This document shows, piece by piece, positions 7,699-50,024 of a stretch of 64,000 nt of DNA (positions are counted from its first letter, which is position 1; the number at the start of each line of letters is the position of its first letter). The DNA comes from Opitutia bacterium (GTDB lineage: Bacteria; Verrucomicrobiota; Verrucomicrobiia; Opitutales; Opitutaceae). Below the pieces are notes generated by a model. That model was not told the DNA's origin, made no database searches, and was given only the letters and a program-made list of their open reading frames with translations. The stretch is from the NCBI GenBank assembly GCA_016217545.1, contig JACRHT010000017.1, positions 806,001-870,000 of the forward strand, in the 5' to 3' direction. The translations under genes were made by a program, and so were the position numbers.

Positions 7699-8528
7699 AC
7701 TGCACCTCCGCCAACGACGACCTCCGCGCCGACGCGCAACACGCCGCACTTCGTCTCGTTGATGAAATTCGTGCCAAAACACACTCCTGTCGGATCCGTC
7801 GCGTCGCGCCGGTAGGTCGCCAGCGTCCGCAGCGGCTCCTTGCCGCGCTCGCCGGTGAGTTGGTCCGTGGTGGTGACGATGCAGCGGATGCTCTTGCCGG
7901 CGTTGCGCAGCACGACGTCGCCGATCCGCGCCGTGGGCCAGTCATCCTCCGCGAACGGCGCGCCGCCGCTCACGACGATGTTCGGGCGAAAACGATCCAT
8001 CGGCACCGGCTCGCCGCCGTTTTCCTGGATGCAATCGTTCAGGTCCGCGAGCGAGGCCTCGCCCGCGATCAAGACCGGCACCGCATCGGCGAAGTTGAAC
8101 ACATCCCCCGGCCGGCCGGCTTTCTTCAGGACGTTCCGCTCGAACGCCGGACCGATCCGCACGAGCGACAGCCGGGCGCCGAGAAAACCGCTCAACCACT
8201 GCGCCGCTTCCGGACCGCAGTCCTCCGCCTGCAGATCGTTATGCTTCCAAACCGTCACACCGCGCAGCGGCGCGCCCGGGTCCGGCGCGCGCGCGATGGA
8301 GACCGAACCGGCGCCTTGCGCCGAGAGAGTCAGCCGCTCGGCGTCGAGCGCGGTCGCGATCTGCGCCATGCGCGCGTGAGTGCGCTGGGTGAGAAATTTG
8401 CCCGTCTCATCGACCACGAGAAACCGGCGATCGCCGACGAGCCCGAGCTCATCCACGTTCGCGACGTCGAGCGACAGACCGCGGCAGGACTTCACGGGAT
8501 AGATGAACAGGCCGGAGACGCGGAGCAT
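7695..8528 (-). CDS. MOSC domain-containing protein (YcbX/mARC-like)
   Basis: 277 residues. The N-terminal MOSC beta-barrel domain is shown by VSGLFIYPVKSCRGLSLDVANVDE-type residues and LVGDRRFLVVDETGKFLTQR. The C-terminal MOSC domain contains FNFADAVPVLIAG, MDRFRPNIVVSG, FAEDDW and SIRCIVTTTD with the conserved Cys. Such proteins bind the molybdenum cofactor and in the mARC/YcbX branch reduce N-hydroxylated compounds such as modified bases. The ATG at 8528 starts MLRVSGLFIYP. The small membrane protein downstream overlaps it by 4 bp. No partner electron-transfer domain is fused. Confidence 0.88.
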   Translation of the reverse strand: MLRVSGLFIYPVKSCRGLSLDVANVDELGLVGDRRFLVVDETGKFLTQRTHARMAQIATALDAERLTLSAQGAGSVSIARAPDPGAPLRGVTVWKHNDLQAEDCGPEAAQWLSGFLGARLSLVRIGPAFERNVLKKAGRPGDVFNFADAVPVLIAGEASLADLNDCIQENGGEPVPMDRFRPNIVVSGGAPFAEDDWPTARIGDVVLRNAGKSIRCIVTTTDQLTGERGKEPLRTLATYRRDATDPTGVCFGTNFINETKCGVLRVGAEVVVGGGAV

Positions 8529-8643
8529 GGCGGTAGAGATAGCCGCAGATTGCCGTTCTGCTCGCAAAAGCAAAATCCCGCGTCGGTGCACTGCGCAAAG
8601 ATTGTCGTGGGTGTGACGGTGCGCGGAGGCGTAGAATGCCGCC

Positions 8644-9171
8644 ATGACAACGCGCGAAAAGTGGGGCCAAGCTTTGGCGATCCTCGGCGGATTGGCGGTG
8701 CTGGTAGGCGGCATCGATCCGCTCGACGGCGGGGTCGTCCTGTTCGCGGGCACGGCGCTGCTGGCCGCCGCGGCGTTCGTCTCCCCGGCGGACCGCACGG
8801 TGCAGCGCGCCCGGGCGACGAACTTCGCGCTGGCCGCGTTCGGCTTCGGCGCGATCGGCGTCCTGTCGAGTGGCGGCGGCGTCGGCGGAGCGACCGGGCG
8901 GCCCCTTTTCTGGGCGTTGCTGGGCCTGCCGCTCGTTGCGGGCTGGTCGCTGAGTTTCTGGGGCCGTGGTTCGCTGCGCTGGATGAACTGGCTGGGGTTG
9001 CTCGCAGGCGGCTGGTATCTGGCGCTGCCGTTGCTCGTGCTCCGCAAGAGCCGGACGAATCCGCACATCCTGTGGCCGGTCCTGATCGCCCTCGCAGTGT
9101 TCGGGCTCTTGACCGTGGTCGGTTGCGTCTGGCGCGTGCGCCAACGCCGGCCTATCGCCGGGAATACGTGA
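8644..9171 (+). CDS. Integral membrane protein, unknown
   Basis: A 175-residue protein with about five hydrophobic segments separated by short polar loops and a basic C-terminus (VWRVRQRRP). No family is recognised. It is divergent from the MOSC gene (115 bp between starts), and its 3' end overlaps the convergent TIGR03067-like gene by 20 bp. The ATG follows a stretch without an obvious Shine-Dalgarno. Confidence 0.6.
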   Translation: MTTREKWGQALAILGGLAVLVGGIDPLDGGVVLFAGTALLAAAAFVSPADRTVQRARATNFALAAFGFGAIGVLSSGGGVGGATGRPLFWALLGLPLVAGWSLSFWGRGSLRWMNWLGLLAGGWYLALPLLVLRKSRTNPHILWPVLIALAVFGLLTVVGCVWRVRQRRPIAGNT

Positions 9172-9508
9172 CGAGGTAGAGCTGCGCGCCGGGCGCGGTG
9201 CGGAAATTCTTTGGGCGCGTGCCGCCGAGGCCGAAGCAGATCATCAACGTGTCGTCGATGAACTTGAAAAGGCACGGAATGGTGCGCCCGGCGTTGGGGC
9301 CGACGGCGCCGTGCAGCGTGAGATGGTGCGCCGTGTCTGCGTCGACGGTGAACGAACCGGTGTCCGCCGCGACGCCGCCGAAGCGCACGGTGTAGATACC
9401 GGCGTCGAGTTCGAACTCGGTTTGCTGGAGCACTTCCTGGGGCGCCTGCTCGCCGTCGAGTTCGGCGTAGAGCGGCTGCCAGCGGCCTTCGAGTGACGGA
9501 GAGTTCAT
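9152..9508 (-). CDS. TIGR03067-like small protein
   Basis: 118 residues starting MNSPSLEGRWQPLYAELDGEQAP. The pattern of a W...AELDG opening, FELDAGIYTV in the middle, then HHLTLHGAVGPNAGRTIPCLFKFIDDTLMICFGLGG and RPKNFRTAPG is that of the TIGR03067 domain, common in Planctomycetes and Verrucomicrobia and probably a lipocalin-like beta barrel. The function is unknown. It overlaps the rmuC stop by ATGA, so it is co-translated with rmuC. There is no signal peptide. Confidence 0.7.
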   Translation of the reverse strand: MNSPSLEGRWQPLYAELDGEQAPQEVLQQTEFELDAGIYTVRFGGVAADTGSFTVDADTAHHLTLHGAVGPNAGRTIPCLFKFIDDTLMICFGLGGTRPKNFRTAPGAQLYLVTYSRR

Positions 9509-10773
9509 CGTTTCAGCTCCGGAGCAGTGAGGCCCTTGGGCGTCTCTTCGATGAGACGCGGCTCGACGATCTTCTTGTCCGAGCCGGAGCCGAGCTTCTC
9601 GAGCTTGCGGCCGGTGACGAGGACGCGACCTTCGACGGACGTGACGGTGCTGTTGTAGGCGGTGACGGCCTGCGTGAGGCGCTGGCCGAGCGCGTCGAGG
9701 TTGTCGGCCACGGTGGCGATGCGCTCGTGCAGTTCGACGCCGAGGCGGCGGATCTCGTCGGCGTTTTTCGAGAGCGCCTCCTGTTTCCAACCGTAGGCGG
9801 CGGCCTTGAGGAGGGCGATGAGGGTGGCGGGCGAAGCGAGAATGACGCCGACGCTGGTGCCGCGCTCGAAGAGGTCGGGTTCGTAGCGGAGCGCGGCGGA
9901 GTAGAAGGCTTCGCCGGGGATGAAGAGAACGACGAACTCGGGGGCGGGCTGGATGGCTTTCCAGTAGGCCTTGTTGCCGAGCGCGTCGATGTGCGTGCGG
10001 ACCGCGCGGGCGTGCTCGGCGAACTTGGCCTTCCGCACGGACTCGTCGGCGGCTTCGAGGGCCTCGAGGTAGGCCTGCATGGGTGCCTTGGCGTCGACGG
10101 CGATGGATTTGCCGCCCGGCAAGCGGACGATCATGTCCGGGCGGAACTCGCCGACGGCGGTCTGCTGGATGAAGTCGACGTTCTCGACCATGCCGGCGAG
10201 CTCGACGACGCGCTGGAGCTGGAGCTCGCCCCAGCGGCCGGCGGTGGAGGTGGAGCGAAGCGAGCGCGAGAGCTTGGTGGTCTCGGATTGGAGCGAGGCG
10301 CTGGTGGAGGCGAGGCCCTTGAGCTGTTCCGAGAGGGAGCCGTAGGCCTCAGTGCGGGCCTTCTCGAGAGCGACGATTTTCGTGTCAACCTTGTCGAGGG
10401 ATTCGCGGATCGGCTTCACGAGGGACTCGCCAGCGCGCTTGAGGAATTCGTCGTTGTTGCGGCTGAGCGCGTCGGCGGCGAGGGCCTTGAAGGTGTCGGT
10501 CAACTGCGTCTGCGCGCGCGCGAGGGCGTCGCGTTCGGCGGTGAGCAGCGTGTCGAGGCGGGACTTGTCGGAGGCAAGGGCGGCGATCTGGGTGCGGAGG
10601 TTGGACAGCTCGACCTGGGCGGCGGCCAGTTGCTCGACGGCGAGGCGTGCGCGCTCGGCGACGGCGGCGGAGCGCGAATGCGCATAGAACCAGCCGAGTC
10701 CGCCCGCGAGCGCGGCTGAGATGAGCGCGATGACGATTTCGATCACGCGCGGAGTGAAGCCCTGATGCGACAC
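9505..10773 (-). CDS. rmuC: DNA recombination protein RmuC
   Basis: 422 residues with a GTG start. One N-terminal membrane helix (about 10-30) is followed by a long coiled coil (about 40-165) and then the nuclease-like RmuC core. The core has the diagnostic segments STSTAGRWGELQLQRVVELAGM, FRPDMIVRLPGGKSIAVDAKAP and PEFVVLFIPGEAF. RmuC proteins limit inversions and DNA rearrangements at short inverted repeats, which is of interest here because the window is full of them. This link is speculative. It heads a two-gene operon with the TIGR03067-like gene. Confidence 0.93.
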   Translation of the reverse strand: MSHQGFTPRVIEIVIALISAALAGGLGWFYAHSRSAAVAERARLAVEQLAAAQVELSNLRTQIAALASDKSRLDTLLTAERDALARAQTQLTDTFKALAADALSRNNDEFLKRAGESLVKPIRESLDKVDTKIVALEKARTEAYGSLSEQLKGLASTSASLQSETTKLSRSLRSTSTAGRWGELQLQRVVELAGMVENVDFIQQTAVGEFRPDMIVRLPGGKSIAVDAKAPMQAYLEALEAADESVRKAKFAEHARAVRTHIDALGNKAYWKAIQPAPEFVVLFIPGEAFYSAALRYEPDLFERGTSVGVILASPATLIALLKAAAYGWKQEALSKNADEIRRLGVELHERIATVADNLDALGQRLTQAVTAYNSTVTSVEGRVLVTGRKLEKLGSGSDKKIVEPRLIEETPKGLTAPELKR

Positions 10774-10847
10774 GCGGGCAAGCGCGCAGCCGAGCGGCGG
10801 AGTCGCGACCGCAGATCGGCCCGTCCGCAGCGGACACGAGGGAACGA

Positions 10848-10953: not shown

Positions 10954-12246
10954 TCACTTCCCGAACGGGTTGCCGGAGTTGCTCGGATCCTTGGCGGGGA
11001 GGTAGATCGTGAAGCGCGTGCCTTCGCCGAGCTTGGTCTTCACTTGGATGAGGCCGCAGTGATGCTTCACGAGGCGGACGACGATCGCGAGGCCGAGGCC
11101 GGTGCCGGACTGAGCCTTCGTGGTGAAATACGGCTCGAAGATGCGCGAGAGCACGTCCTGCGGAATGCCGGGGCCCTGATCGATGACGGAGAGAGCGACC
11201 AACGGCGCGTGGTTGGCGAAGGACTCGAGGTTGATGAAGCGCTCCTCGGGCGTGTCGCGGAAGGTCTCGATCTTCAGCGGGTCGTCGTAGCGCTCGGCGG
11301 CGATCCACACGGTCTGCGGGCGCTCGGCGCTCTGGAATGCGTTCACCGTGAGGTTGAGGAGAATCTGAATCAGCTCGGTGCCGCCGATTTGCGCGGAGGC
11401 GTCGCGTTCGAGGTATTTGGCGGAGAGCTTGCCGCCGCGCAGGCTCGGGTGGCCGCGCATCAGCGTGTGCACGTCGTCGATGACTTGGTTGACGGAAACC
11501 TCGGGGGCTTGCGCGCTGCGCTTGTTCACGAAGCGCAGGTAGCGGCGCGTGATGGCGGCGCAGGTGTTGACCTGCTTGGCGAGGAGATTGACGTCCTCGC
11601 GCACGGCCTGAAGGTCGGCGCCGTAGAGCGAGCCGACGCTGTCGAGCTTGTGGCGGAGGAGTTCGACGTAGCCGGTGATGACGGTGAGCGGGTTGTTGAT
11701 GTCGTGCAGCGCGCCGGCGTAGATCTCGGTCGTGGTGCGCGCCATCTCCTCCTTCACGGAGGCGTCGTTGAGTTGCTCGCTGAGGGCCTTCAGGCGCTCG
11801 GAGGTGGAGGAAACGGTTTCCGAAATCCGGCGCAGGTGCAGCGCGCGCGTCACGGCTTCGCGAATCGTCGAAAGATCGAACGGCTTGCTCAGGTAATCGC
11901 ACGCGCCGAGCCGCAGCGCCTGGCGCGCGGTCTCGATCGTTTCGTAGGCGGTGAGCATGATAACCTCGATGTGCGGATCGATGGCCTTGAGGCCGCGGAG
12001 CACGTCGATGCCGGACTTGCCGGCCATGCGGATATCGAGGATCGCCAGCTGCACCGGGTGCGCCTTGGCGTAATCGAGCGCCTTGTCGCCGTTCTCGACC
12101 GCGTGGACGTTGAAATCCTGCCGGAACACCATCCGCAACGAGTGCCGCGGGCCCTCCTCGTCGTCGACGATCAGGAGCGTCGGGAGCGTGGAAGGTGCGG
12201 TGACGTTGGCGGGGACGGTGGACACGGACGCGGGGGCGGCGAGCAT
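10954..12246 (-). CDS. Receiver-histidine kinase hybrid
   Basis: 430 residues. Residues about 22-140 are a complete receiver domain with an acidic pocket (DDEE, 28-31), phosphoacceptor D71 in LAILDIRM, T99 and K121 in SKPF. A short linker leads to a phosphoacceptor-helix region with H180 in GALHDINNPL, followed by the ATPase domain with N in LLNLTVNAF, DQGPGIP and GTGLGLAIV. Receiver-first kinases relay a phosphoryl signal from an upstream kinase to a new output. It is the last gene of the operon kinase (15514) - FadL - hybrid, 17 bp after the FadL stop. No DNA-binding domain is present, so the final output is elsewhere. Confidence 0.92.
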   Translation of the reverse strand: MLAAPASVSTVPANVTAPSTLPTLLIVDDEEGPRHSLRMVFRQDFNVHAVENGDKALDYAKAHPVQLAILDIRMAGKSGIDVLRGLKAIDPHIEVIMLTAYETIETARQALRLGACDYLSKPFDLSTIREAVTRALHLRRISETVSSTSERLKALSEQLNDASVKEEMARTTTEIYAGALHDINNPLTVITGYVELLRHKLDSVGSLYGADLQAVREDVNLLAKQVNTCAAITRRYLRFVNKRSAQAPEVSVNQVIDDVHTLMRGHPSLRGGKLSAKYLERDASAQIGGTELIQILLNLTVNAFQSAERPQTVWIAAERYDDPLKIETFRDTPEERFINLESFANHAPLVALSVIDQGPGIPQDVLSRIFEPYFTTKAQSGTGLGLAIVVRLVKHHCGLIQVKTKLGEGTRFTIYLPAKDPSNSGNPFGK

Positions 12247-12263
12247 GAGTGCGCGAGGGCGGA

Positions 12264-13487
12264 TTAGAACTTGTAGCCGAGGGAAAGCGAGAAGGCGTTG
12301 ATCGAGTTCTTGTAGGAACCATCGGCCGTGCCGCCGAGGAGGTTGGCCGGGCTGCCCGTGACGCGGCGCGAGTCGCCGGTCGCGTATTGCCAGGCGAAGT
12401 CCGCCGAGAAGGCCGGGCCGCGGTAGCCGACGCCGAGCGAGTAGAAGGTCTTGTCGCTGTCGGGCACGGCGGGCGTGTAGGTGGCGTCGGGCGTGTTGTT
12501 CTCCGTGTAGCAAATGCCGCCCGAGACGTTCCAGCCGCCGCTCAGGTAGCGCGTCGCGCCGAGTTCGTAGAAGGTGCCGGACTCCCAGTTGAACGGGAGC
12601 GGCTGGTTGCCCGAGGCCTTGTTGACGGTGACGACGTTGAAGCGATCCCAGTTTGTCCAATCGATGTTCGCCTCGATGTTCCACTGTGGCGTGGGGCGGA
12701 ACGACCAGCCGACGATCACAACTTCCGGGAAATCGAAGGTGGCGTTTGCCGGCTCGCTGGCGACGAGCGGGATCGTGGACGAGGTGCCTTCGAGCTTCAC
12801 GCGCGTGCGGCTCTGGTAGCTGAGGCCGAACTGGTGGCGCTCGTTGATTTTCCAGAGGAGGCCGGCGTTGAAACCGAACGCGTGGCCGTCGCCCTCGAAG
12901 CGAAACAGGTCGTTCGGTGCGAAGACGCCGAGGGCGCGGTTGAGGTTCGTCGAGACGCGATTGTAGGTCGCGCTGAGGCCGAGCGAGACTTCCGGCGAGA
13001 CCTGCCACGCACCGGTGAAATTGAAGGTGCGGAACGTCTGCTCGTTCTTCAGCGCGAAGGTGCGCAGCGGGGACGAGTTGGGCCAATCGCTCTTCAAGCC
13101 GAAGGGCGCGTAGACGCCGATGCCGTAGGCCCACGGGGCGCCGGCGGGCTTCCACGTGACGTAGACGGCGGGCACGGTGACGTAGTCATCGTTCATCGAC
13201 GCCGAACCGGCGGCACCCGAATAGTCGGACGAGAGCGCGACTTCGTAGATGTTGCCGGCGAACTGCGTGCCTTCGAGCTGGGCGATGCCGGCCGGGTTAT
13301 AGTAGAGCGCGCTGGGATTGTCGGCGGTGGCGACGAAGGCGTTGCCGCGCGCGGTGGCGAAGGCGTCCTTGAAACCGACGCGCGTGCCGGAGGCCAGCGC
13401 GGCGGGCGCGGCGGCCAGGAGAACGAGGGCTCCGCCCAGCGACGCAACGAGTGCGCGGGCGGTGCGAGGTGATGTGACCGGAATCAT
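12264..13487 (-). CDS. FadL/OMPP1/TodX-type outer-membrane transport protein
   Basis: 407 residues with a clear signal peptide ending in AALASG. The mature N-terminus GTRVGFKDAFATARGNAFVATADNPS followed by ALYYNPAGIAQL carries the NPAG motif of FadL family plug/barrel proteins. The rest alternates polar and aromatic strands and ends in a C-terminal Phe (SLSLGYKF), the outer-membrane insertion signal. FadL proteins let long-chain fatty acids and other hydrophobic compounds cross the outer membrane. It lies 2 bp after one kinase gene and 17 bp before another, an unusual setting that suggests uptake or sensing of a hydrophobic ligand. Confidence 0.92.
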   Translation of the reverse strand: MIPVTSPRTARALVASLGGALVLLAAAPAALASGTRVGFKDAFATARGNAFVATADNPSALYYNPAGIAQLEGTQFAGNIYEVALSSDYSGAAGSASMNDDYVTVPAVYVTWKPAGAPWAYGIGVYAPFGLKSDWPNSSPLRTFALKNEQTFRTFNFTGAWQVSPEVSLGLSATYNRVSTNLNRALGVFAPNDLFRFEGDGHAFGFNAGLLWKINERHQFGLSYQSRTRVKLEGTSSTIPLVASEPANATFDFPEVVIVGWSFRPTPQWNIEANIDWTNWDRFNVVTVNKASGNQPLPFNWESGTFYELGATRYLSGGWNVSGGICYTENNTPDATYTPAVPDSDKTFYSLGVGYRGPAFSADFAWQYATGDSRRVTGSPANLLGGTADGSYKNSINAFSLSLGYKF

Positions 13488-13489
13488 GC

Positions 13490-15514
13490 TTAGCGTGGGA
13501 GAGGTAACCGAATCGTGAGATCCGCATCGCCCGGCGTGAGCCGCGGCTGAATGTCGAGGTGTCCCTGATGAGCCTCGATCACTCGGCGGGCGATGGTCAG
13601 GCCCAGACCAACGCCGGTGTTGCGAGTAGTGAAAAACGGTTCGGTGGCACGCGGCGCCGCGTCGGCGGCGAAACCGCTGCCGCTGTCGCGGAAGCGCATG
13701 ATCAGCTCGGCGCGGCCGTCGGCGGTGGGCGCGGCGTTCAATCCCACGCTCACGCGGCGCGCGCCGTCGGCGCTCGATTGCAGGCCGTTGAGAAAGATCT
13801 CTTGGAACGCATGCGCGAGGCTGGCGCGGTTGCAGCGCAGCATCACGGGCGGGATGTCGCTCTGGATGTCGAGCACCGCCTCGCCGCCGGCGTAGGCGCG
13901 GGATTTTTCGAAGGCCGCGCGCAGGATGTCGTCGAGCGGGACGAGTTCCGCAGGCGCCTGCTCGGAACGCGCGAGGAGCAGCATCTGGTCGGTGAACCGC
14001 TGGATGCGCTGCGTCTCGCGCGCGAGCGCGGTTTTCAGCGACTCCCGGAAATCCGCGTGCTCGATCTCGGCGTCGAAGAGCTGCGCGTGGGTCGTGAGCG
14101 GCACGAGCGAGTTGCGGATCTCGTGCGCGAAGCGGCGCGCGATGAGCGAAATCAGCTTCAGGTTCGACGACTCGATCTCAGCGCGCTGCGCGGCGCGGAT
14201 CTTCGTGAAATCCTCGAGGAGCAGAAGCGCGGTCTGCGGGAGCTTGCTGCCGCTCTGGCGCAGCGGGATGACCGTGGCGCGGAACACGCGGGCAGCCGCG
14301 CCCTCGCCCATCTCGTGGAAGAACGGCTCCACCTCGACGCCGCGCTCGCTGGCTTCGTGGAGTTTCGCGGCGATCGCGGCGGGCAGGTCGTGGACGTCGA
14401 GCTGGGTGGCGGCGTCGCCGCGGAGGAAGGTGATGATCGCGCGATTCGCGTAGACGAGCTGCTGCGCGGGACCGAGCACGAGCGCGCCAACGGTGAGGCC
14501 GTTCAGCACGCTGGCGAAGAGCCGGTGGCTGCCGACGAGTTGATGGTGCAGCCAGCTGTTCTTCACCGCGAGGCCGAGCTCCTCGAGCAGATGGTAAACG
14601 AGCAGCAGCTCCTCGTCGCTGAACTCGCCGCCGGTGATCCGGCCGCCGAGGACCGCGACGCCGAGCGTGCGCTCGCGGTCGTTGACCGGGATGGCGACCT
14701 GGCCGCCGAGCACCTCGAACTCGCGCGCGAGCTTCGGGTCGACGAACGGCGCGGACGAGCCGGCGGGCGAGCGGAGGATCTGCGGGTTTTGCGAGAGCTG
14801 GCGCCCGAGCCCGCTGCGGCGGGTCAGCGCGAAACACTCGACGAGATCCGCGGACAGGCCGATCGCCGCGGCGCAGGGCAGCGCGGAGTTTTCCCCGCGC
14901 GCAGTGCCCGGCAGGGCGTCGGCCGCAGGCGCTTCGAGGAAGATGGCGATGCGCGAGACGCCGACGACTTCGCGGAGTTTCAGGATGAAGTGGTGCGTCA
15001 ACTGCCGGTAATCGAGCGAGTAGCCCAGCACCTGCGAAAAATCCCGCAGCACTTCGAGCGCAGAGGACAGCGCGGCAGCCTTGGCATTGAGCCGGTTCGG
15101 CGCGAACACGGGCGCCGAATCGCCGCCGCCCGAGCCCGCGGTCACGGCCGCGCGAGCGGTCAGGCGCGTGAGATTGGCGGCCAACGCGGCCACATCCAGC
15201 GGTTGAAAGAGCACGCTGTCCGCGCCGGCGGCGAGCAGCCGCGCCTGCGCCTCGACCGTCGTGCCGGCCGGAGCCACGACCACGACCGCCAACTGGGGGG
15301 CTACGGCCCGTGCGGCGGCGAGCGACTGGGCGAATTCCGCGTCCACACGCGCCGGCACGAACAGGCCGGCTTCAAAAGCCCCGGCGGTGAGTGGTCCACG
15401 AGCGTCCCCGACGGAGGACCGCTGATGGATTTGGAAGTCGGCGGACGAAGCCAGCGCCGTTTGGAGAAGCAGCGCCGAAGGGGAATCGTCGGTAATGAGG
15501 AGAAGCCGGGTCAC
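13490..15514 (-). CDS. Sensor histidine kinase with receiver-like, GAF and PAS domains
   Basis: About 674 residues from GTG 15514; an upstream TTG at 15580 would add 22 residues, so the start is uncertain. Residues 1-115 look like a receiver (LLLITDDSPSALLL) but lack the acceptor Asp and have Gln for the conserved Lys (FQPLD), so this is a pseudoreceiver. A GAF-like domain (about 140-310) and a PAS-like domain (about 320-430, NGLTVGALVLGPAQQLVYANRA) follow. Next come H464 in FAHEIRNSL and an ATPase domain with DSGSGFA and GVGLGLTIARRV. There are no membrane segments. It is the first gene of the operon with FadL and the receiver-kinase, and is divergent from the acyltransferase-methyltransferase gene. 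Confidence 0.88.
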   Translation of the reverse strand: MTRLLLITDDSPSALLLQTALASSADFQIHQRSSVGDARGPLTAGAFEAGLFVPARVDAEFAQSLAAARAVAPQLAVVVVAPAGTTVEAQARLLAAGADSVLFQPLDVAALAANLTRLTARAAVTAGSGGGDSAPVFAPNRLNAKAAALSSALEVLRDFSQVLGYSLDYRQLTHHFILKLREVVGVSRIAIFLEAPAADALPGTARGENSALPCAAAIGLSADLVECFALTRRSGLGRQLSQNPQILRSPAGSSAPFVDPKLAREFEVLGGQVAIPVNDRERTLGVAVLGGRITGGEFSDEELLLVYHLLEELGLAVKNSWLHHQLVGSHRLFASVLNGLTVGALVLGPAQQLVYANRAIITFLRGDAATQLDVHDLPAAIAAKLHEASERGVEVEPFFHEMGEGAAARVFRATVIPLRQSGSKLPQTALLLLEDFTKIRAAQRAEIESSNLKLISLIARRFAHEIRNSLVPLTTHAQLFDAEIEHADFRESLKTALARETQRIQRFTDQMLLLARSEQAPAELVPLDDILRAAFEKSRAYAGGEAVLDIQSDIPPVMLRCNRASLAHAFQEIFLNGLQSSADGARRVSVGLNAAPTADGRAELIMRFRDSGSGFAADAAPRATEPFFTTRNTGVGLGLTIARRVIEAHQGHLDIQPRLTPGDADLTIRLPLPR

Positions 15515-15664
15515 TTCCTGTGAGTGCGTCGAGGAGACGGACGCTCGCCAATCGAAGCAAGCGTGAACTCCTGTGAACAAACCCGGAAATCTCCCTAGCA
15601 GCGTGACTTGCTCGTTGCATCAGCTTGGGAAATTCTCTCTTTTTCGGGGCGCGGGCCGATTCAG

Positions 15665-17365
15665 ATGATTGCGGATTCTTCGAGTGTCCACACCGGACAA
15701 ATTCGGACGGACTACGTCTATTTTCCCAGCCGGACGGGGCTGAAGGTCGCGGCGTGCCTCGACCACACCGGCCAGCTCGCCAGCCGCCCGTGGGTGGTGA
15801 TCGCCCCGAAATACGGCGAGACCAAGAAAAACAACCTCCAGCTGGCCTATTATCTCGCGGCGAACGGCCTCAACGTCCTCCGCTTCGACCAGACCAACCA
15901 CGTCGGCGAGAGCGAGGGTCGCATGCAGGATTTCAGCCTGCCGGGCGCGGTCGACGACATCATCGCCTGCTACGACTTCCTCGCGGAAAAGGGCTATGCG
16001 CGCGAAGCGGTGCTCGTCTCGAACAGCCTCTCCGCCCGCTGCGCCTTCCGCGCCGCAGTCACGGAAACCCGGATCACCCGCCTCATCAGCGTCGTGGGCG
16101 TGGTGAACATGCAGCACACGCTGCGCGAGGTTTACCGCGAGGACATCTTCGGGACCTTCCTGCAAGGCCGCCACTGGGGCCTGACCGACATTCTCGGTTT
16201 CGACATCAACGGCGAAATCTTCCTCGGCACCGCGGTCGATACCCGCATGCACGATTTGGAGGGCACGGTCGCCGACATCGCGAAGCTCAAGGTGCCGCTG
16301 ATCTATTTCTTCGCAATGAACGACGCTTGGGTCGCCCACGGCGATGTCGTTCGCGCCACCGAAAATCAGCCGCTCGCCAAGCTCGTCGCCGTCGAAGGCG
16401 CGATGCACGAGGTCCGTGAGAATCCCCGCGCCGCCGAGCAGGTTTTCCGCCGTGTCGTCTGGGCCTGCCTCAGCGAGCGCGACTATCCCGGCGACGATCA
16501 AGCCAAGCTCCAGGTGCCCGACAAGAAGCTCGTCATCGCGCAGAACAAGGACGAGCGCGAGCGCCTCCGCCGCTCCGAGGCGCCCGCCGAGACCGAGACG
16601 AATTTCTGGTCCGGCTACCTTGAGAAATACTCCGTCCTCGAGAAATCGCAGGACTACCGCGACTACATGGAGCTGCTCGGCCGCCTCTGCGCGTTCCGCC
16701 CCGGCGCCGCCGTGCTCGATGCCGGCTGCGGCAACGGCATGTTCGGCCGCTGGGTGCTGCACGAGACCATCCGCCAGCGTCGCGTGAAGGCCGCTGCACC
16801 GGAAGCGCCGTCACTCTACGTCGGCCTCGAGCTGACCGAACGCGGCCTGAACGACGCCCTCGGCAACCACCTCACCACGCTCGATCGCGATCGCGCCGAA
16901 GTCGCGCGCGGCGGCCCGCCGGGCATGGGTTATCTGCGTTTCGACTTCAACGACCTCGGCGATGCCAGCGGCGCCCCTCGCCTGCCCTTCGCCGACGGCA
17001 CGTTCGACGTCGTGTGCTGCAGCCTCGTGCTCTCCTACCTGAAACGCCCGCAGCTGCTCCTGCGCGAACTGCACCGCGTCGCCAAACCCGGCGCTGTGCT
17101 CGTGGCGTCGAGCATGAAGCCGCACTGCGACATGTCGGCGATCTACCGCGATTTCATGGACCAGCAGGCCTCACCCGAGGAGCTGGAGCGCGCCCGCAAC
17201 CTCCTGCGCGCCGCCGGCAAGATCCGCCTGAAGGAGGAAGTCGGCCACTACGCGTTCTTCAGCGACACGGAGCTCGCCGGCCTCGTGCTCGAAACCGGTT
17301 TCAGCGTGCGCGAGAGCTTTCACTCGCTCGGCAACCAGGCGGTGGTTATCAAGGCCCAGAAGTGA
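15665..17365 (+). CDS. Fusion: LuxD-like acyltransferase/hydrolase plus SAM methyltransferase
   Basis: 566 residues. Residues about 15-270 are an alpha/beta hydrolase closest in look to LuxD, the bioluminescence acyl-ACP thioesterase/acyltransferase. The nucleophile elbow is SLSAR with S123, the acid is D220 in AMNDAWV and the histidine is H248 in GAMHEVREN. The Ser-Asp spacing of 97 equals that of the LuxD triad (114/211/241). After a charged linker (about 290-320), residues about 335-566 form a class I methyltransferase with DAGCGNG (352-358) and FDVVCCSLVLSYL. It could release and methylate an acyl chain. Its TGA overlaps the GTG of the membrane kinase gene, so they are co-translated. The product is unknown. 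Confidence 0.8.
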   Translation: MIADSSSVHTGQIRTDYVYFPSRTGLKVAACLDHTGQLASRPWVVIAPKYGETKKNNLQLAYYLAANGLNVLRFDQTNHVGESEGRMQDFSLPGAVDDIIACYDFLAEKGYAREAVLVSNSLSARCAFRAAVTETRITRLISVVGVVNMQHTLREVYREDIFGTFLQGRHWGLTDILGFDINGEIFLGTAVDTRMHDLEGTVADIAKLKVPLIYFFAMNDAWVAHGDVVRATENQPLAKLVAVEGAMHEVRENPRAAEQVFRRVVWACLSERDYPGDDQAKLQVPDKKLVIAQNKDERERLRRSEAPAETETNFWSGYLEKYSVLEKSQDYRDYMELLGRLCAFRPGAAVLDAGCGNGMFGRWVLHETIRQRRVKAAAPEAPSLYVGLELTERGLNDALGNHLTTLDRDRAEVARGGPPGMGYLRFDFNDLGDASGAPRLPFADGTFDVVCCSLVLSYLKRPQLLLRELHRVAKPGAVLVASSMKPHCDMSAIYRDFMDQQASPEELERARNLLRAAGKIRLKEEVGHYAFFSDTELAGLVLETGFSVRESFHSLGNQAVVIKAQK

Positions 17366-19461
17366 GCGGCTATCTCGCCATCTCCTCGTTCCTGAATTTC
17401 CTGGGAGCTGGCATTCTCGCGTTCGCCGTCGTCGCCCGCGGACGGCAGGATAGCATCAACATCCGGTTCGGCGTCTTCGCGTTCTTCACCGGCTGCTGGT
17501 CCGCGGCCTACTTCCTCTGGCAAATCGCCGACGACGCCACGCACGCGCTGTTCTTCACGCGCCTGCTGATGCTGTTCGCGTATTTCGTGCCGGTCGCGTT
17601 CTTCCATTTCATCTCGGAACTCTGCGGCGAGGACCACCGCTGGTGGGTCCGCGGCGGCTACGTGACCGCCATCGTGCTGGCGTTGGTGAATTTCACCCCG
17701 CACATGGTGGCGGGCGTCGGCCCCATGATGTCGATGCCTTACTGGCCGCGGGCCGGTTCGCTCTACTGGGTTTATCTGACGCTCTTCGGCGCGTTCACCC
17801 TCCAAGCCGGCTACCTGCTGATCAAGCACCTCCGCGCGGCCACCGGCGGGCGCGCCACGCAGCTCCGCAACATCCTGCTCGCCTCGATCGTCGGCTTCAG
17901 CGGCGGCGCAACAAACTTCCCTCTCTGGTATGGCGTGAAGCTCGCCCCGTTCGGCAACCTGCTCATCTTCCTCTACCTCGTGATCATGGCGCACGCGGTG
18001 TCGCGCTACCAGCTGCCGCTCGTCACCTACGACTTCGTCCACGCCACCGTCCAGCTCGGCATCGCGGTCACGCTGGGCGTCTTCTACCTGCTGCTCATCG
18101 CGACCATCGGGCCGCCGCTCGGCTACGAATTCGGGTCGGTCGAACTGCTCACCCACTTCCTCGTCTGCATCGTCATCTGCCTGTTCTTCCTCTGGGCCGC
18201 GCCTCGATTGCAACGCGCCACCGATCGCATCCTCGCGCAAACTTACCTCCGCCGCCGCCAGGGCCAGCAACAGGCGCTCAAGGAATTCGGCGTCCGCCTC
18301 GTCTCGCTCGGCAGTGAACAGGAAATCTTCGAAAACACCGCGCGCGAGATCGCCAAGGCCTTCAACCTCGAAGCCGCCGTCGCCTACGCGCGCACCGAAT
18401 TCGACCGCGACTACCAGCTGCGCGCCGTGCACGGCTGGCCGCGCGCGCCGCAGATTCTCCCCATCGATTTCGCCCTCACACGCGTGTTCCAGGAACGCCC
18501 GGGCCCGCTGTTCTTCGATGGCTCGGAAGTCGAATTCGCCCCCGACGTCGTGCAGGCCCTGGCCACTTGGCGCGAAAAACTCCCCGTCGAGGCCGCCTTC
18601 CCCATCGCCAGCGACGACTTCATCTCCGGCATCCTCCTCCTCGGACCGCGCGAACGCGGCGAACGCTACACCGAAGCCGAGATCACGCTCCTCGAGTCAC
18701 TGTGCCTCCAGGTCGCCGTCACGCTCCGCGCCCGCCAACTGGAGCGCCGCGCCAGCCAGACCGAGAAACTGATCGCGCTTGGCACGCTCGCCGCCGGCCT
18801 CGCCCACGAACTGCGCAACCCGCTCACCTCGATCCAGACCTTTTCCGCGCTGCTGAAGGAGAGCCGGCCGGATCCAGACTCGCTCCATGAATTCAGCGGC
18901 GTCGTGCAACGCGACGTGAACCGCATCGCCAGCATCGTCGAAAACGTCGCCGCCTTCGCCGAGAGCAACAAGGTCGAGATGACCGCCGTCAGCCTCGCCG
19001 AAGTCGTCCGCACCGTCGCCGAGATCATCCGCCCCGAGGCCGACCGCGTGCACGTCGTGCTCTCGCTCGAAGCCGTCTCGCAGCTGCCGCCGGTGCGCGG
19101 CAACCACAGCCAGCTGCTCCAGGTCTTCCTCAATCTCTCGCAAAACGCGCTCCAAGCCATGGAGCCGAAGGGCGGCGGCCAGCTGAAATTCTCGCTCGAG
19201 CTTCGCACCGCCGACGTGCCGACACCACAGCTCTGCGCCAGCGTCAGCGACAACGGCCCGGGCATCGACCCGAAAGTCCAGCCGCGCATCTTCGAGCCGT
19301 TCACGACCACGAAGGCCACCGGCGAACGCCGCGGCAAACACGGCATGGGCCTCGGTCTCGCGATCGTGAAGCGCATCGTGCAGCACCACCACGGCGAAAT
19401 CCAAGTCGCCAGCACGCCCGGTCAGGGCACCACTTTCCGCGTCTACTTGCCGCCCGCGTAA
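17362..19461 (+). CDS. Membrane sensor histidine kinase, multi-TM N-terminus with GAF domain
   Basis: 699 residues from a GTG overlapping the previous stop. Residues 1 to about 285 contain about eight hydrophobic helices like the seven-helix sensor input found in PrsK-type kinases. A GAF domain spans about 310-465. H482 in GLAHELRNPLTSIQ is the phosphoacceptor. The ATPase domain has N in NLSQNALQAM, DNGPGIDP, FEPFTTTK and GMGLGLAIVKRIV. Translational coupling to an acyltransferase-methyltransferase fusion suggests it senses that enzyme's product or substrate in the membrane. The cognate regulator is probably the next gene, 3 bp downstream. A PrsK-like role with PEP-CTERM proteins is another option. 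Confidence 0.9.
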   Translation: MSGYLAISSFLNFLGAGILAFAVVARGRQDSINIRFGVFAFFTGCWSAAYFLWQIADDATHALFFTRLLMLFAYFVPVAFFHFISELCGEDHRWWVRGGYVTAIVLALVNFTPHMVAGVGPMMSMPYWPRAGSLYWVYLTLFGAFTLQAGYLLIKHLRAATGGRATQLRNILLASIVGFSGGATNFPLWYGVKLAPFGNLLIFLYLVIMAHAVSRYQLPLVTYDFVHATVQLGIAVTLGVFYLLLIATIGPPLGYEFGSVELLTHFLVCIVICLFFLWAAPRLQRATDRILAQTYLRRRQGQQQALKEFGVRLVSLGSEQEIFENTAREIAKAFNLEAAVAYARTEFDRDYQLRAVHGWPRAPQILPIDFALTRVFQERPGPLFFDGSEVEFAPDVVQALATWREKLPVEAAFPIASDDFISGILLLGPRERGERYTEAEITLLESLCLQVAVTLRARQLERRASQTEKLIALGTLAAGLAHELRNPLTSIQTFSALLKESRPDPDSLHEFSGVVQRDVNRIASIVENVAAFAESNKVEMTAVSLAEVVRTVAEIIRPEADRVHVVLSLEAVSQLPPVRGNHSQLLQVFLNLSQNALQAMEPKGGGQLKFSLELRTADVPTPQLCASVSDNGPGIDPKVQPRIFEPFTTTKATGERRGKHGMGLGLAIVKRIVQHHHGEIQVASTPGQGTTFRVYLPPA

Positions 19462-19464
19462 CCG

Positions 19465-20805
19465 ATGTCCGCCGCCGCCACCATTCCCGTCAACGGCCCC
19501 GCCGCGCTCCGCGCCCTCGCGCGCGCGTTCGGGCAATTCGACAACTTCGACCGCTTCGTCGCCGGTCTGCAGGCCGCGCTCGACCGCTCGCCGACCTTCG
19601 AGCATTCGCTCATCGCGCTCGACCGCGGCATCGCGGAAGGCGTCTCGCGCTTCCCGCCCGCCACGCTCTCGCTCCCGATCATGAGCGACGCCGGCAACCT
19701 CGGTGCGTTGCAGGTCGGCGTGGACCAGCGCCGGCCGTTCGCCGCGGAAGACCTTCACCTGCTCGCGGGCCTCGCCGACTTCCTCGGCGCCGCACTGTCG
19801 CAGGCGCAGCGCGCGCAGGACGCCGCGCGCGGCCGCGAACTGCTGCGCCTGTTGCTGAATCAAGCGCCCGTCGGCATCGCCGCCTACGGCCTGGATCGCC
19901 GTCCGATCGTCGCCAACGAATCCGCCGTCCGCTGGCTCGGATCCGCGACGCTGCCGTTCGCGGACTTCGAGACCGGCACGGAGAACTTCCACCTGCGTGC
20001 CGACGGCAAACTCGTCTATGGCGAAGTCCGCCGCGCCCCCGACGCGGGCGGCGTGTGGATTCTCGTGCTGCAGGACCTCACGCCGGACCAGAGTCGGCTG
20101 ATGGACGGCTTCCAGCGCGAGGTGTTCCGCGCGCTGGCGGGCAACCAACGTTGCGGCATCGCGCTCGTCGAAAGCGCCGATCCGCAGAACGGCGTCCTCC
20201 GCCGCCTGCCGGCCGTGCGCGCCGCGCTCCAGAATTCCGAAATCGCCGGACCCTACGACGCCCACCGCATCGGCCTCGTGCTCGCCGGCGGCGGCCTCGC
20301 GCTCCGCGCCCGCCTGAGACAGGTGCGCGGCGCTTTCGCCGGAGTGCCCGGCTTGCGCCTGAGTTACTCCGAACTCGGTCGCGACGGCCGCACGCCGGAC
20401 GCGCTCCTTGCCTCCGCCCTGCAACGCTCCGGTCTCTACGACGAGTTGCTGCGCCCCGCCGTGCTCGTGCAGGATGACAATCCCGCCGTCGCCGACACGC
20501 TCGCCATGGTGCTCGGCCGCGACTTCCACGTCGTGAAGAGCCCGAACGCCGACCGCACGCGCGCGCTGCTCGTCGACGAGACGTTCGAAGGCCTCGTCAT
20601 CGAACTCGATCCTCGCGCCGGCCCGTCCGGCGCCGAGCTCGCGCGAGAGGCCCGCCTGCTGCAACCCGGCATTCAGTCTTTCCTCACGACGATCGGCGAA
20701 GCCGCCATTCCGCCCGCGACGACCGACGCGACCGTGGTCGAAAAACCGTTCAACGTCGCCGCGCTGACCGCGCTCGTGCGCGAAAAGCTCGCGCCCCAGT
20801 CCTAG
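19465..20805 (+). CDS. GAF-PAS-receiver signalling protein without DNA-binding domain
   Basis: 446 residues. A GAF-like domain spans about 20-125, a PAS-like domain about 125-225 (LNQAPVGIAAYGLDRRPIVANESAVRWLG), an unassigned stretch about 225-325, and a receiver domain about 332-446. The receiver has DD (337-338), a candidate acceptor D382 in IELDP and K427 in VEKPF, so it can probably be phosphorylated. No kinase or DNA-binding region is present. As the third gene of the operon it is the likely phosphorylation partner of the membrane kinase just upstream and may act by protein contact. It converges with the ABC ATPase gene, with 13 bp between stops. Confidence 0.78.
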   Translation: MSAAATIPVNGPAALRALARAFGQFDNFDRFVAGLQAALDRSPTFEHSLIALDRGIAEGVSRFPPATLSLPIMSDAGNLGALQVGVDQRRPFAAEDLHLLAGLADFLGAALSQAQRAQDAARGRELLRLLLNQAPVGIAAYGLDRRPIVANESAVRWLGSATLPFADFETGTENFHLRADGKLVYGEVRRAPDAGGVWILVLQDLTPDQSRLMDGFQREVFRALAGNQRCGIALVESADPQNGVLRRLPAVRAALQNSEIAGPYDAHRIGLVLAGGGLALRARLRQVRGAFAGVPGLRLSYSELGRDGRTPDALLASALQRSGLYDELLRPAVLVQDDNPAVADTLAMVLGRDFHVVKSPNADRTRALLVDETFEGLVIELDPRAGPSGAELAREARLLQPGIQSFLTTIGEAAIPPATTDATVVEKPFNVAALTALVREKLAPQS

Positions 20806-26886: not shown

Positions 26887-27161
26887 ACGTGCCGGGATGC
26901 CGACGGCTTCCCTGCAAGCCATTCCATCGGCACTTTTCGCTCAACAAGTAGACAAATCGCGGTGCCGGCGCCGCGTAAACGGACCGATGTTGCCCTCAGC
27001 CGCCCGCCTCCTCGCACGTGCAATCGTGACCGCTTTTGCGAGTCGAAACACCGACGCCCCCCAACCGTCTGTCGCAGCCGCGCGCGTGTTCATCCGACGC
27101 CACGCGCCGCTCGCGGTTCGGCGCTTGTCACTCCCCAACCCCCTCCCTTCACTGCCCACTT
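26887..27161. other. Divergent intergenic region before the bat operon
   Basis: These 275 bp separate the PEP-CTERM gene (minus) from the bat operon (plus), so promoters for both should lie here. I see no strong palindrome and cannot assign -35/-10 boxes with confidence. Confidence 0.4.
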
Positions 27162-28133
27162 ATGAGTAACGGCCCCGCTTGGTCCCAAAAACTCCGCGCA
27201 GAAATCGGCAAAGCCGTCATCGGTCAGGACGCCGTCGTCGAACGTCTCCTCGTCGCCCTCCTCGCCAACGGCCACGTGCTCCTCGAGGGCATGCCCGGCT
27301 TGGCCAAAACGCTCCTGATCAAGTCGCTCGGCACCGCGCTGGGCGTCCAGTTCGAGCGCATCCAATTCACGCCCGACCTGCTGCCCTCCGACGTCGTGGG
27401 CACGATGATTTTTTCGCCCAAGGACGGCGCCTTCGCCACGCACAAAGGCCCGATCTTCGCCAACCTCGTCCTCGCCGACGAAATCAACCGCGCGCCCGCC
27501 AAAGTCCAATCCGCGCTGCTCGAAGCCATGCAGGAACGCCAGGTCACGATCGGTGGCCACTCTCACCAGCTGCCGAAGCCGTTTTTCGTCATGGCGACGC
27601 AAAACCCGGTCGAGCAGGAAGGCACCTACCCGTTGCCCGAGGCGCAGACCGACCGCTTCCTCTTCAAGCTGCTCGTCGACTATCCCACCGCCGCCGAGGA
27701 GGCGCGCATGATGGAAATGTGGGGCCAAGTAACGAAGGCGCCCGCACTCCAACCCGTTTCGAGCGGCGAGGAACTCATCGCGCTCCGCACCTACGTCGAC
27801 GCCGTGCACGTCTCGCCCGGCGTGCAGGCCTACATCCTCGCGCTCGTGCGCGGCACGCGCGACCTCGCGGCCGCCTCCGAAGGCGGCGCGTCCAAGCGCC
27901 TGCTGAATTTCGGCGCCTCCCCGCGCGCCTCGCTCGCACTCTTCCAAGCTGGCCGCGCGCTCGCTTGGCTGCGCGGCTCCGACTACCTGTCGCCCGTGCT
28001 GGTGCAGGAAATCTTCCACGACGCCCTGCGCCACCGCGTCGGTCTCACCTACGAAGCCGAGGCCGAGGAGCTGTCCTCCGACAAGATCCTCACGCAAGTC
28101 CTCGAGCGCACGCCGGTCCCGGCCAAGGCCTGA
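27162..28133 (+). CDS. MoxR-family AAA+ ATPase (bat operon)
   Basis: 323 residues. Walker A is LLEGMPGLAKT, Walker B is LADEINRAP, and the sensor and MoxR-specific segments FVMATQNPVEQEGTYPLPEAQTDRF are intact. MoxR ATPases act as chaperones that fit metal centres or complexes together with vWA proteins. It is the first gene of a five-gene bat operon. The spacer to the DUF58 gene is filled by an inverted repeat of GTTCTC units. The ATG at 27162 lies at the start of the homologous region, and GTG or ATG further upstream is not needed. Confidence 0.93.
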   Translation: MSNGPAWSQKLRAEIGKAVIGQDAVVERLLVALLANGHVLLEGMPGLAKTLLIKSLGTALGVQFERIQFTPDLLPSDVVGTMIFSPKDGAFATHKGPIFANLVLADEINRAPAKVQSALLEAMQERQVTIGGHSHQLPKPFFVMATQNPVEQEGTYPLPEAQTDRFLFKLLVDYPTAAEEARMMEMWGQVTKAPALQPVSSGEELIALRTYVDAVHVSPGVQAYILALVRGTRDLAAASEGGASKRLLNFGASPRASLALFQAGRALAWLRGSDYLSPVLVQEIFHDALRHRVGLTYEAEAEELSSDKILTQVLERTPVPAKA

Positions 28134-28141
28134 ACCAGATC

Positions 28142-28216
28142 TTTCTCGTTCTCGTAATCGTTCTCCCCGCGCACCACCCGAGAGAACGAGGAAAGAGAAC
28201 GAGAACGAAGAACGAG
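28142..28216. repeat. Inverted repeat of GTTCTC/GAGAAC units between bat genes
   Basis: The left arm (28142-28165) is made of TTCTCG/CGTTCTC units. The right arm (28180-28216) carries their reverse complement as several GAGAACGA units. It occupies almost the whole MoxR-DUF58 spacer and ends 3 bp before the DUF58 start codon. Confidence 0.8.
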
Positions 28217-28219
28217 TAA

Positions 28220-29161
28220 ATGCCCAACCCGATCACAGAGCACACGTCCGTCGTCACCTCCCAGCTCGCGCTGCTGCGCCAGCTGGAGTGGAAGGTGCGC
28301 CATGCGGTCGAGAACGTGCTCAGCGGCGAGTATCGCTCGGCCTTCCGCGGCCGCGGCATGGAGTTCGACCAGGTCGTCAAATACACCTTCGGCGACGACA
28401 TCCGCGACATCGACTGGAACGTCACCGCGCGCCTCGGCGAACCCTACCGCAAGAAATTCATCGAGGAACGCGAAGTCACGCTGCTGCTCGTGCTCGAGGA
28501 CAGCGTCAGCCTGCAATTCGGCTCCGGCGAAAAATCCAAACGCGAGGCGCTGCTCGAACTCGCCGGCCTCGTCATGCTGCTCGGCGCCGTCAACCGCGAC
28601 CGCGTCGGCTTCCTCCACGCCTCGCCCGAAGGCTACACGCTCAAGGAACCCGTCCGCGGCCGCGGCCAGATTCTCCATCTCGCCGCCCAGCTGCTCGGAC
28701 GCGATGCGCCGTCGCTCGAGAGCCCTCAACTCTCAGCCCTCAACTCTCAACCCTCCGCCGATTTCATCCCGTGGCGCCTGCTGGCCCACGCCGCTCCGCG
28801 CCACTCGATCCTGATCTGGCTCGGCGATTTCGCGCCGCGCGCCTATCCGGAAGGGTGGAGCGTGCTCTCGCGCCGCTATCAGACGATGGGCTTCCGCGTC
28901 GACGACCCGTGGGACCGCGAGCTGCCGCACGGCCGCGTGCTCACCGCCTACGACCCGACCACCGGCCGCCTCGTGAACCTCAACGGCGCCTCCTCCGCGC
29001 AACGCGCGGCGCACCAGCTCTGGGTCGACCAGCGCGAGCAAGCTTTCCGCGATCTCTTCCCGAATCCGCTCAGCCGCCTCGTCGTCGGCACGGGCGAGGA
29101 TCGCCTCGACGCACTCGTCCGCTTTTTCCACGCCCGCATGGCCGCGGGAAATCGCCGTTAG
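28220..29161 (+). CDS. DUF58 protein of bat operon
   Basis: 313 residues. The DUF58 hallmark is SGEYRSAFRGRGMEFDQVVKYTFGDDIRDIDWNVTARLG, followed by a degenerate vWA fold (LLLVLEDSVSLQFGSG) without the full MIDAS motif. It is predicted to be cytosolic and to work with the MoxR ATPase just upstream. Residues about 168-180 (SPQLSALNSQPSA) are encoded by a tandem repeat of CTCAACTCTCA units at 28721-28755 that interrupts the ordinary family sequence in frame. The ATG at 28220 follows the inverted repeat directly. Confidence 0.9.
   Translation: MPNPITEHTSVVTSQLALLRQLEWKVRHAVENVLSGEYRSAFRGRGMEFDQVVKYTFGDDIRDIDWNVTARLGEPYRKKFIEEREVTLLLVLEDSVSLQFGSGEKSKREALLELAGLVMLLGAVNRDRVGFLHASPEGYTLKEPVRGRGQILHLAAQLLGRDAPSLESPQLSALNSQPSADFIPWRLLAHAAPRHSILIWLGDFAPRAYPEGWSVLSRRYQTMGFRVDDPWDRELPHGRVLTAYDPTTGRLVNLNGASSAQRAAHQLWVDQREQAFRDLFPNPLSRLVVGTGEDRLDALVRFFHARMAAGNRR
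28721..28755. repeat. Tandem CCTCAACTCTCAG-type repeat inside DUF58 gene
   Basis: About five degenerate copies of a 6- to 7-nt unit (CCTCAA, CTCTCAG) lie in frame in the DUF58 gene. The same unit recurs in the BatB/C gene at 31465-31498. Confidence 0.75.
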
Positions 29162-29179
29162 CGCGGCGAAAAGCAGCCC

Positions 29180-29266
29180 GTGACAAGGACCAAGTAACAA
29201 GAACCCGCTCACCGATGCACCGCATGCTTCGCAGCTCCTGGCCCTTGTCACCTGGCCCTTCGCACT
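29180..29266. repeat. Inverted repeat of GTGACAAGGRCCA units between bat genes
   Basis: The left arm (29180-29202) has GTGACAAGGACCA and AGTAACAAG. The right arm (29238-29266) has the reverse complement in two tandem copies (CTGGCCCTTGTCA, CCTGGCCCTTCG). It fills the 112-bp gap between the DUF58 and BatA genes. Confidence 0.75.
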
Positions 29267-29273
29267 TCGTCGA

Positions 29274-47681: not shown

Positions 47682-48688
47682 GACGCCGCCTCCTTCGCCT
47701 TGCCGCGCCCGACCCAGCCGAAATACGCGACCAGCAACCCCAGCTCCACCACGCCGAAAGCGATCTTCAACGCATACGGGATCGCCGGCTCGTGATACTG
47801 CGACAAATACGACTCCACCACGCCCGCCCACACCAGCATCAGCGCCGTGCCCGCAGCGAGCGTCGCCACGTCATCCGCCACCGCGCGCAACCGCACCGCC
47901 AGCGGACGCCCGTCGTCGCGTCCGATCACCGCGCGCGCCAGCACGAAACCACCAGTCGCGCCAACGAGGATCGCCGGAATCTCGATCACGCCGTGCGGCA
48001 GCAGCCAGCCCGCGAGAAACACGCCCTGCCCCGCCAACAAATAATCCGCAATCACCGCGCCGAGAATCACGCCGTTGTAGAACAGCAGCACGATCGTGCC
48101 CGCGCCCCACGCGAAACCGAGCGCCAGCGCGAAGAGCGACACGCGCGTGTTGTGCGTCATCAGCTCGCCCGCAAACGTCGCCTTGTGACCCGCCAGCCGG
48201 TCCTTCATCGCCGCTTCCTCCTCGGCGACGCGATCCGCCGGGTCGCCGCGCAGATGCGAAAACGGCATCAACGCCTCCTTCGCCTCCGGGTCCACCGCCA
48301 CCGCCACGCCGCCGAAGATCGCACCGACCAACGTGATCACGACCGTGAGCAACAGCGCCCGCGCGTGCCGCCGCAGCGTCTGCGGAAACGTCGCGCTCAA
48401 CCACTGCCACGGCCGCAACCGCGCCGACCCGACCCGCCGCGTGCCGTGGATCTCCGCGTAAGCCCGCGCCACCAGCAGCTCCAGCCGCCGGCGCATTTCC
48501 GGCTCCGCCGAAAACGACGCCACGCGCGCCAAATCCGCGCCCGCTCGCCGGTAGAGATAGTCCAGTTCCTTCGCCTCCGCGAGCGACAGCGGCGCCCACG
48601 CGTCGCGCTGGCGACGGTCGAGCATCTTCTCCAGCCGCAGCCAATACGGCTCCTCCGCGGCCACGAATCTCGCGAGATCGACGATCAC
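47678..48688 (-). CDS. SpoIIM-family (stage II sporulation protein M) membrane protein
   Basis: 336 residues from a GTG overlapping the DUF58 stop. A soluble N-terminus (IVDLARFVAAEEPYWLRLEKMLDRR) contains LSLAEAKELDYLYRRAGADLARV, typical of the DUF95/SpoIIM group in non-sporulating bacteria. Four or more helices follow, with TFAGELMTHNTRVSLFALALGFAWGAGTIVLLFYNGVILGA and a GLLLPHGVIEIPAI-like WLLPHGVIEIPAILVGATGG as hallmarks. Function outside sporulation is unknown; it goes with RDD, DUF58 and MoxR. Confidence 0.9.
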   Translation of the reverse strand: MIVDLARFVAAEEPYWLRLEKMLDRRQRDAWAPLSLAEAKELDYLYRRAGADLARVASFSAEPEMRRRLELLVARAYAEIHGTRRVGSARLRPWQWLSATFPQTLRRHARALLLTVVITLVGAIFGGVAVAVDPEAKEALMPFSHLRGDPADRVAEEEAAMKDRLAGHKATFAGELMTHNTRVSLFALALGFAWGAGTIVLLFYNGVILGAVIADYLLAGQGVFLAGWLLPHGVIEIPAILVGATGGFVLARAVIGRDDGRPLAVRLRAVADDVATLAAGTALMLVWAGVVESYLSQYHEPAIPYALKIAFGVVELGLLVAYFGWVGRGKAKEAAS

Positions 48689-50016: not shown

Positions 50017-50024
50017 GAAACGTC

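Follow-up and report, generated by a model that had tools for sequence, protein, structure and literature searches.

A LuxD-family acyltransferase fused to a methyltransferase and paired with a membrane sensor kinase in Verrucomicrobiota: a candidate synthase for a lipophilic signal

Introduction

What would a relative of the bioluminescence enzyme LuxD, fused to a methyltransferase, be doing directly upstream of a sensor kinase? The question is raised by gene E (Table 1), found in a 64,000-nucleotide stretch of the genome of an Opitutia bacterium (contig JACRHT010000017.1, hereafter the window). An earlier note, made from the sequence of the window, had described the product as a LuxD-like acyltransferase joined to a class I methyltransferase, lying outside any luciferase locus and possibly able both to release an acyl chain and to methylate it. 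Here we combine profile searches, structural modelling and a survey of related loci, and ask what this enzyme is, with which genes it travels and what it may produce.

Table 1. Features of the window discussed in the text, with the basis of each assignment and, for neighbouring genes, conservation among fusion loci.
Feature	Position	Strand	Basis and conservation
B: receiver + histidine kinase, without DNA-binding domain	10954..12264	-	Pfam; 23/25 loci, heuristic count
C: FadL/OmpP1/TodX outer-membrane channel (PF03349, 1.8e-59)	12264..13487	-	Pfam; 22/29 testable loci
D: divergent histidine kinase (HisKA, HATPase)	13490..15580	-	Pfam; 28/32 testable loci
E: LuxD-family acyltransferase/thioesterase fused to class I SAM methyltransferase, 566 aa, ATG to stop	15665..17365	+	ORF, Pfam, phmmer, alignment, model
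LuxD-family domain of E (PF02273), residues 44-263	15794..16453	+	Pfam
S121 codon of E, nucleophile, aligned with LuxD Ser114	16025..16027	+	Alignment
D220 codon of E, aligned with LuxD Asp211	16322..16324	+	Alignment
H248 codon of E, aligned with LuxD His241	16406..16408	+	Alignment
Class I methyltransferase domain of E (PF13489), residues 330-550; DAGCGNG motif at 352-358	16652..17314	+	Pfam, alignment, model
F: histidine kinase with N-terminal 7TM region (PF16927), GAF, HisKA, HATPase	17362..19461	+	Pfam; GTG start overlaps E stop by 4 bases
G: GAF/PAS protein with receiver-like C-terminal domain	19465..20805	+	Pfam; 28/28 testable loci

Results

An N-terminal domain of the LuxD family

The frame of gene E is already open from a TTG at position 15608, and the equivalent of the annotated ATG is the start in many homologues. 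Its N-terminal domain matched the LuxD profile strongly (PF02273, 2e-28; 99.9 bits against a cut-off of 20.3), whereas the Hydrolase_4/S33 profile (PF12146) scored 29.8 bits, barely above its cut-off of 27. The best sequence match in the PDB was LuxD of Vibrio harveyi (1tht, 8.6e-23 with phmmer), and this was also the solved fold nearest to an AlphaFold2 model of E built from 24 sequences (mean pLDDT 82.2), with Z 30.1 and an rmsd of 3.3 over 278 aligned residues (model residues 12-306); the runners-up were led by feruloyl esterases (Z 26.0). Both score and fold thus place the domain nearer LuxD than the serine aminopeptidases and other hydrolases, so that its LuxD kinship passes the refuting test set in the earlier note, and an ordinary S33 peptidase was rejected as its identity. 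Nor is E a LuxD proper, as it scored 102.8 bits against the NCBIfam LuxD equivalog NF052253, far under the cut-off of 420.

The computed alignment with 1tht pairs S121, D220 and H248 of E with Ser114, Asp211 and His241, which we take to be the catalytic triad of LuxD, and the triad of another LuxD, encoded in a set of lux genes on an Escherichia coli K-12 plasmid, falls in the same columns. All three residues are invariant in 24 of 24 aligned sequences, a set that leaves out locus L025, whose enzyme gene is split over two frames. The aspartate and histidine are those proposed earlier, but the serine is not: S123 had been named as nucleophile, and is rejected because Ser114 aligns with S121 and because S123 is replaced by alanine in three of the 24 sequences (L016, L017 and L022). 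With S121 as the nucleophile, the Ser-Asp spacing is 99 residues in E and 97 in LuxD, and so not the same, as had been claimed. The assignment to the family has firmer support than this spacing argument. The conserved neighbours of the triad that had been pointed out (AWV and HExxEN) do recur, since E and LuxD have in common the motifs N-D-x-W-V and H-[ED]-x-x-E-N, and both display an unusual nucleophile elbow, SLSAR in place of GxSxG.

E therefore resembles LuxD, the myristoyl-ACP thioesterase/acyltransferase of luxCDABE, in family profile, fold and aligned Ser-Asp-His residues, but differs from it in its methyltransferase fusion, its linkage to sensor kinases and the company it keeps. Neither LuxC nor LuxE occurs anywhere in the genome (99.88% complete), which carries to genome level this part of the statement that the locus is not a luciferase locus; a luciferase or aldehyde pathway was rejected on this ground.

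A class I methyltransferase at the C-terminus

The class I methyltransferase assigned to the C-terminal half was borne out by Pfam and by a structure match of the domain model. When the domain was modelled alone, many class I enzymes tied as its closest relatives (Z 17-19), including some that do not methylate carboxyl groups; the modelled fold thus does not reveal the substrate. The NCBIfam model of the fatty-acid O-methyltransferase Mtf2 gave only 13.6 bits against E.

Distribution of the fusion

The fusion recurs well beyond the window, a matter that the earlier note had left to a wider search: it is conserved in 33 loci, all from Verrucomicrobiota and mostly labelled Opitutae. A scan of genome contigs yielded 24 loci with 44-83% identity over most of the length of E (labelled Opitutae, Opitutia, Opitutaceae, Opitutus, Didemnitutus or Verrucomicrobia), and further homologues reach down to 37%. 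Since homologues remain nearly full-length overall at 37-83% identity, the architecture is not a chance arrangement. Many of these relatives are metagenome-assembled and several loci are cut at contig ends.

By profile, the fusion is encoded in 11 of 223 genomes of the order and 4 of 286 of the class. PF02273 was found in 4 of 194 genomes of the phylum (a sample that overlaps with that of the order), exactly the four that contain the fusion, and in none of 14 control genomes; in the genomes of Verrucomicrobiota that were searched, domains of the LuxD family are restricted to this fusion. Only one of 72,556 plasmid records matched, namely the lux plasmid, at 28% identity. No description of the fusion or of its locus was found in the open-access literature, a weak sign of novelty.

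A conserved neighbourhood of kinases, receivers and FadL

A 7TM-type kinase (F) is encoded directly downstream of E in all 33 loci, and its start overlaps the stop of E (GTGA or ATGA) in 31 of them. This count comprises the window, the 24 loci of the contig scan and eight further loci; L025 was kept, while L069 (matching L020), L072 (matching L022) and the shorter copies of counted loci (L001, L026 and L055-L063) were left out. The loci termed testable in Table 1 were set by flank-length thresholds of our own choosing. The start of kinase D is uncertain, homologues pointing to about position 15514, and these homologues additionally match receiver, GAF and PAS models. In L066, L067 and L071 the receiver-kinase B sits after G, on the same strand. 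No DNA-binding regulator was recognised in the Opitutales loci.

Strong matches to the sensor region of F (E-value below 1e-100) occurred in exactly the 11 enzyme-positive genomes of the 223 in the order sample, one of which has a second strong copy. Strong FadL matches (below 1e-120) were found in all 11, plus some enzyme-negative genomes.

Several other features of these genomes were recorded. The receiver-like domain of G (window positions 19465-20805) seemingly has glutamate at the phospho-acceptor aspartate, as do many homologues, and may be a pseudo-receiver. L097 and L098 contain close relatives of FadL that are not accompanied by the remainder of the locus, possibly through decay of the cassette; one lone FadL relative has an internal TGA (G367) and the other lies near a fragment of B (G172). 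The window also contains two MoxR/DUF58 gene sets (27036-34851 and 48688-50990), the first of which also includes vWA and BatD-like genes.

A ketoacyl synthase in the place of the enzyme

F-like kinases without the fusion were present in five genomes of the order sample. A FabF-like ketoacyl synthase lies immediately upstream of this kinase in G045, G211 and G268, while no synthase was seen upstream of it in G302 or G362 (L096 starting inside the kinase). A methyltransferase gene of ICMT/PEMT type precedes the ketoacyl synthase in L091, L094 and L101, and in L091 and L094 it was assigned to the ICMT family. The second F copy in G319 has no synthase upstream.

Matches to F were obtained in 24 of the 194 genomes sampled across the phylum; four of these have the fusion, one is G045 and the 19 others were all inspected. 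A beta-ketoacyl synthase is encoded immediately upstream in 16 of the 20 F-like, fusion-free genomes, G045 included (one synthase, in L145, being partial); in the remaining four the contig end cuts the locus (L123, L127 and L141) or there is no synthase (L122). Beyond the order the kinase matches have weak E-values (1e-40 to 1e-12), and are credible because the neighbourhood is conserved. FadL accompanies 11 of the 20 fusion-free loci, and a sigma-54 response regulator stands at the end of seven (two detected by Pfam, five by tblastn; one comparison, covering L124-L129, was run without sigma-54 regulator or FAD oxidase queries). Such a regulator, which was not found in the fusion loci, would provide a transcriptional output.

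A tree of 37 F kinases separates 27 associated with the fusion from 10 associated with a synthase by a single branch with 100/100 support; unrooted and with long branches, it is compatible with a single switch of enzyme but does not prove it. In G570, which belongs to the genus of the window but has no fusion, orthologues of B (84% identical) and of an ABC transporter (93%) flank a cassette with genes for an FAD-linked oxidase, a ketoacyl synthase and two kinases (L139, 7243-13767), where the window has the LuxD-methyltransferase, kinases and FadL; the first of these two kinases is of the multi-TM type, and its ATG overlaps the stop of the synthase. The synthase-type cassette of G045, from the same family, is also located between the ABC gene and B, so that different enzyme-kinase cassettes occupy one chromosomal site. 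That the fusion simply replaced the ketoacyl synthase would be too strong a statement: G224 and G289 encode fusion, F and G on one contig and a synthase with D, FadL and B on another (L132 and L134), and since they hold both enzymes, the two may cooperate rather than replace each other. As judged from gene order and domain content, unrelated enzymes with putative acyl-type chemistry, some accompanied by a methyltransferase, fill the same slot before related kinases.

The ketoacyl synthases of L124-L126 and L128-L131, compared with what we take to be the FabF triad, keep the active-site cysteine but lack the second histidine (GN or GC for GH); those of L124 and L129 lack the first histidine too, and that of L093 apparently lacks the cysteine, so that unusual chemistry is possible. 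L092 encodes a second F-like kinase (7920-10823), a protein of 967 aa that includes a receiver and additional sequence at its C-terminus and has no adjoining acyl enzyme, and L122 a 7TM-GAF-SpoIIE protein (7963-10242) whose N-terminus is like the sensor region of the kinase. A Methyltransf_2-type O-methyltransferase, the third kind of methyltransferase in these loci, is encoded near FadL in a locus of the ketoacyl-synthase type (L126, 3842-4873, minus strand).

Discussion

The conserved pairing of enzyme and receptor suggests a purpose for gene E. An acyl enzyme, a co-translated multi-TM kinase, a FadL channel and receiver proteins together form the arrangement that one would expect if a signal synthase were encoded with its receptor, from which we infer a signal. 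Our preferred reading, which we hold to be slightly more probable than not on this comparative evidence, is that the fusion acts as the synthase partner in a synthase-receptor cassette whose signal is lipophilic, acyl-derived and probably methylated. The LuxD domain would accept on S121 an acyl group donated by a thioester, either acyl-ACP or acyl-CoA, and then free it, and the fused methyltransferase would methylate the released product, a fatty-acid methyl ester being the simplest option; to judge from the domains, acyl release with methylation would be the most economical chemistry for E. The product would cross the outer membrane via the FadL channel and be sensed by F, which is co-translated with the synthase, and F would phosphorylate those proteins of the locus that bear receivers, B among them. 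Having no DNA-binding domain, these would need to act on a regulator elsewhere. Against this reading speak the loci in which FadL and kinase D are missing, and the F-like proteins without an adjacent acyl enzyme (L092 and L122).

The closest parallel in gene layout is with the methyl 3-hydroxy fatty-acid quorum-sensing locus phcBSRQ of Ralstonia, which comprises the methyltransferase PhcB, the sensor kinase PhcS, PhcR (a receiver and kinase without a DNA-binding domain) and the receiver PhcQ (PMC8578825). As there, a methyltransferase gene adjoins a membrane sensor kinase gene throughout the fusion loci, and both systems have a receiver-kinase protein without a DNA-binding domain (B) and a receiver protein; unlike what is described for phcBSRQ, the fusion locus has a synthase with an added LuxD domain, encodes FadL and one more kinase, and has no known output regulator. 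Compared by gene layout and domains, and given the different synthase, the fusion locus may be said to work like phcBSRQ, not to be one. A FadL channel is likewise tied to a lipophilic signal in Sinorhizobium, where it takes up long-chain AHLs (PMC9938287), although the signal there is an AHL and not the product of a LuxD-methyltransferase.

It is unlikely, in our estimation, that the locus instead handles exogenous hydrophobic compounds, imported by FadL, sensed by the kinases and hydrolysed and methylated by E for use or detoxification. FadL-family channels are reported to import hydrocarbons (PMC7728783), and esterases are among the alpha/beta hydrolases whose fold is akin to that of the N-terminal domain of E. 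However, we saw no genes for beta-oxidation or degradation in the conserved neighbourhood, the stop of E overlaps the start of the receptor kinase and not FadL, and the genes that occupy the same slot elsewhere encode ketoacyl synthases, which are biosynthetic.

We regard as slightly less likely still a role of E in modifying a membrane or envelope lipid, with kinases that monitor the envelope and no diffusible signal. F resembles PrsK of the XrtA/PEP-CTERM system, which is reported to belong to an exopolysaccharide-associated system (PMC1569441), and some relatives in the phylum end in a sigma-54 response regulator, a further likeness to PrsK-PrsR. Yet F reaches only 125.4 bits against the PrsK model (TIGR02916; cut-off 300), so that an XrtA/PrsK locus was rejected on this kinase score, and it is coupled to an acyl enzyme and to FadL, which, as an uptake channel for hydrophobic molecules, would better fit a diffusible molecule. 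That E is an ordinary hydrolase-methyltransferase fusion beside functionally unconnected kinases, as the large superfamilies behind both domains might allow, is very improbable and already disfavoured by the unbroken E-F adjacency at identities down to 37% and by the other acyl enzyme that fills the same place elsewhere.

Extended to the phylum, the signal reading becomes a more tentative proposal, which we consider possible but somewhat doubtful: Verrucomicrobiota-wide signalling in which a common receptor scaffold (multi-TM kinase, second kinase, receiver-kinase and FadL) is combined with an interchangeable acyl-signal synthase. Most of the phylum would use a ketoacyl synthase for this, some Opitutales would add ICMT to it, and other Opitutales would rely on the acyl-releasing, methylating fusion, whose product would be a new class of autoinducer. 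The presence of the locus in strain IMCC26134, whose genome is complete (L022), makes these ideas directly testable, and the different synthases placed before related receptors offer a natural experiment on how signal and receptor change together. If the proposal is true, LuxD, known from light-producing operons, would have been recruited into a signal synthase, and the Verrucomicrobiota, abundant in soil and water, would have a candidate cell-signalling system of their own.
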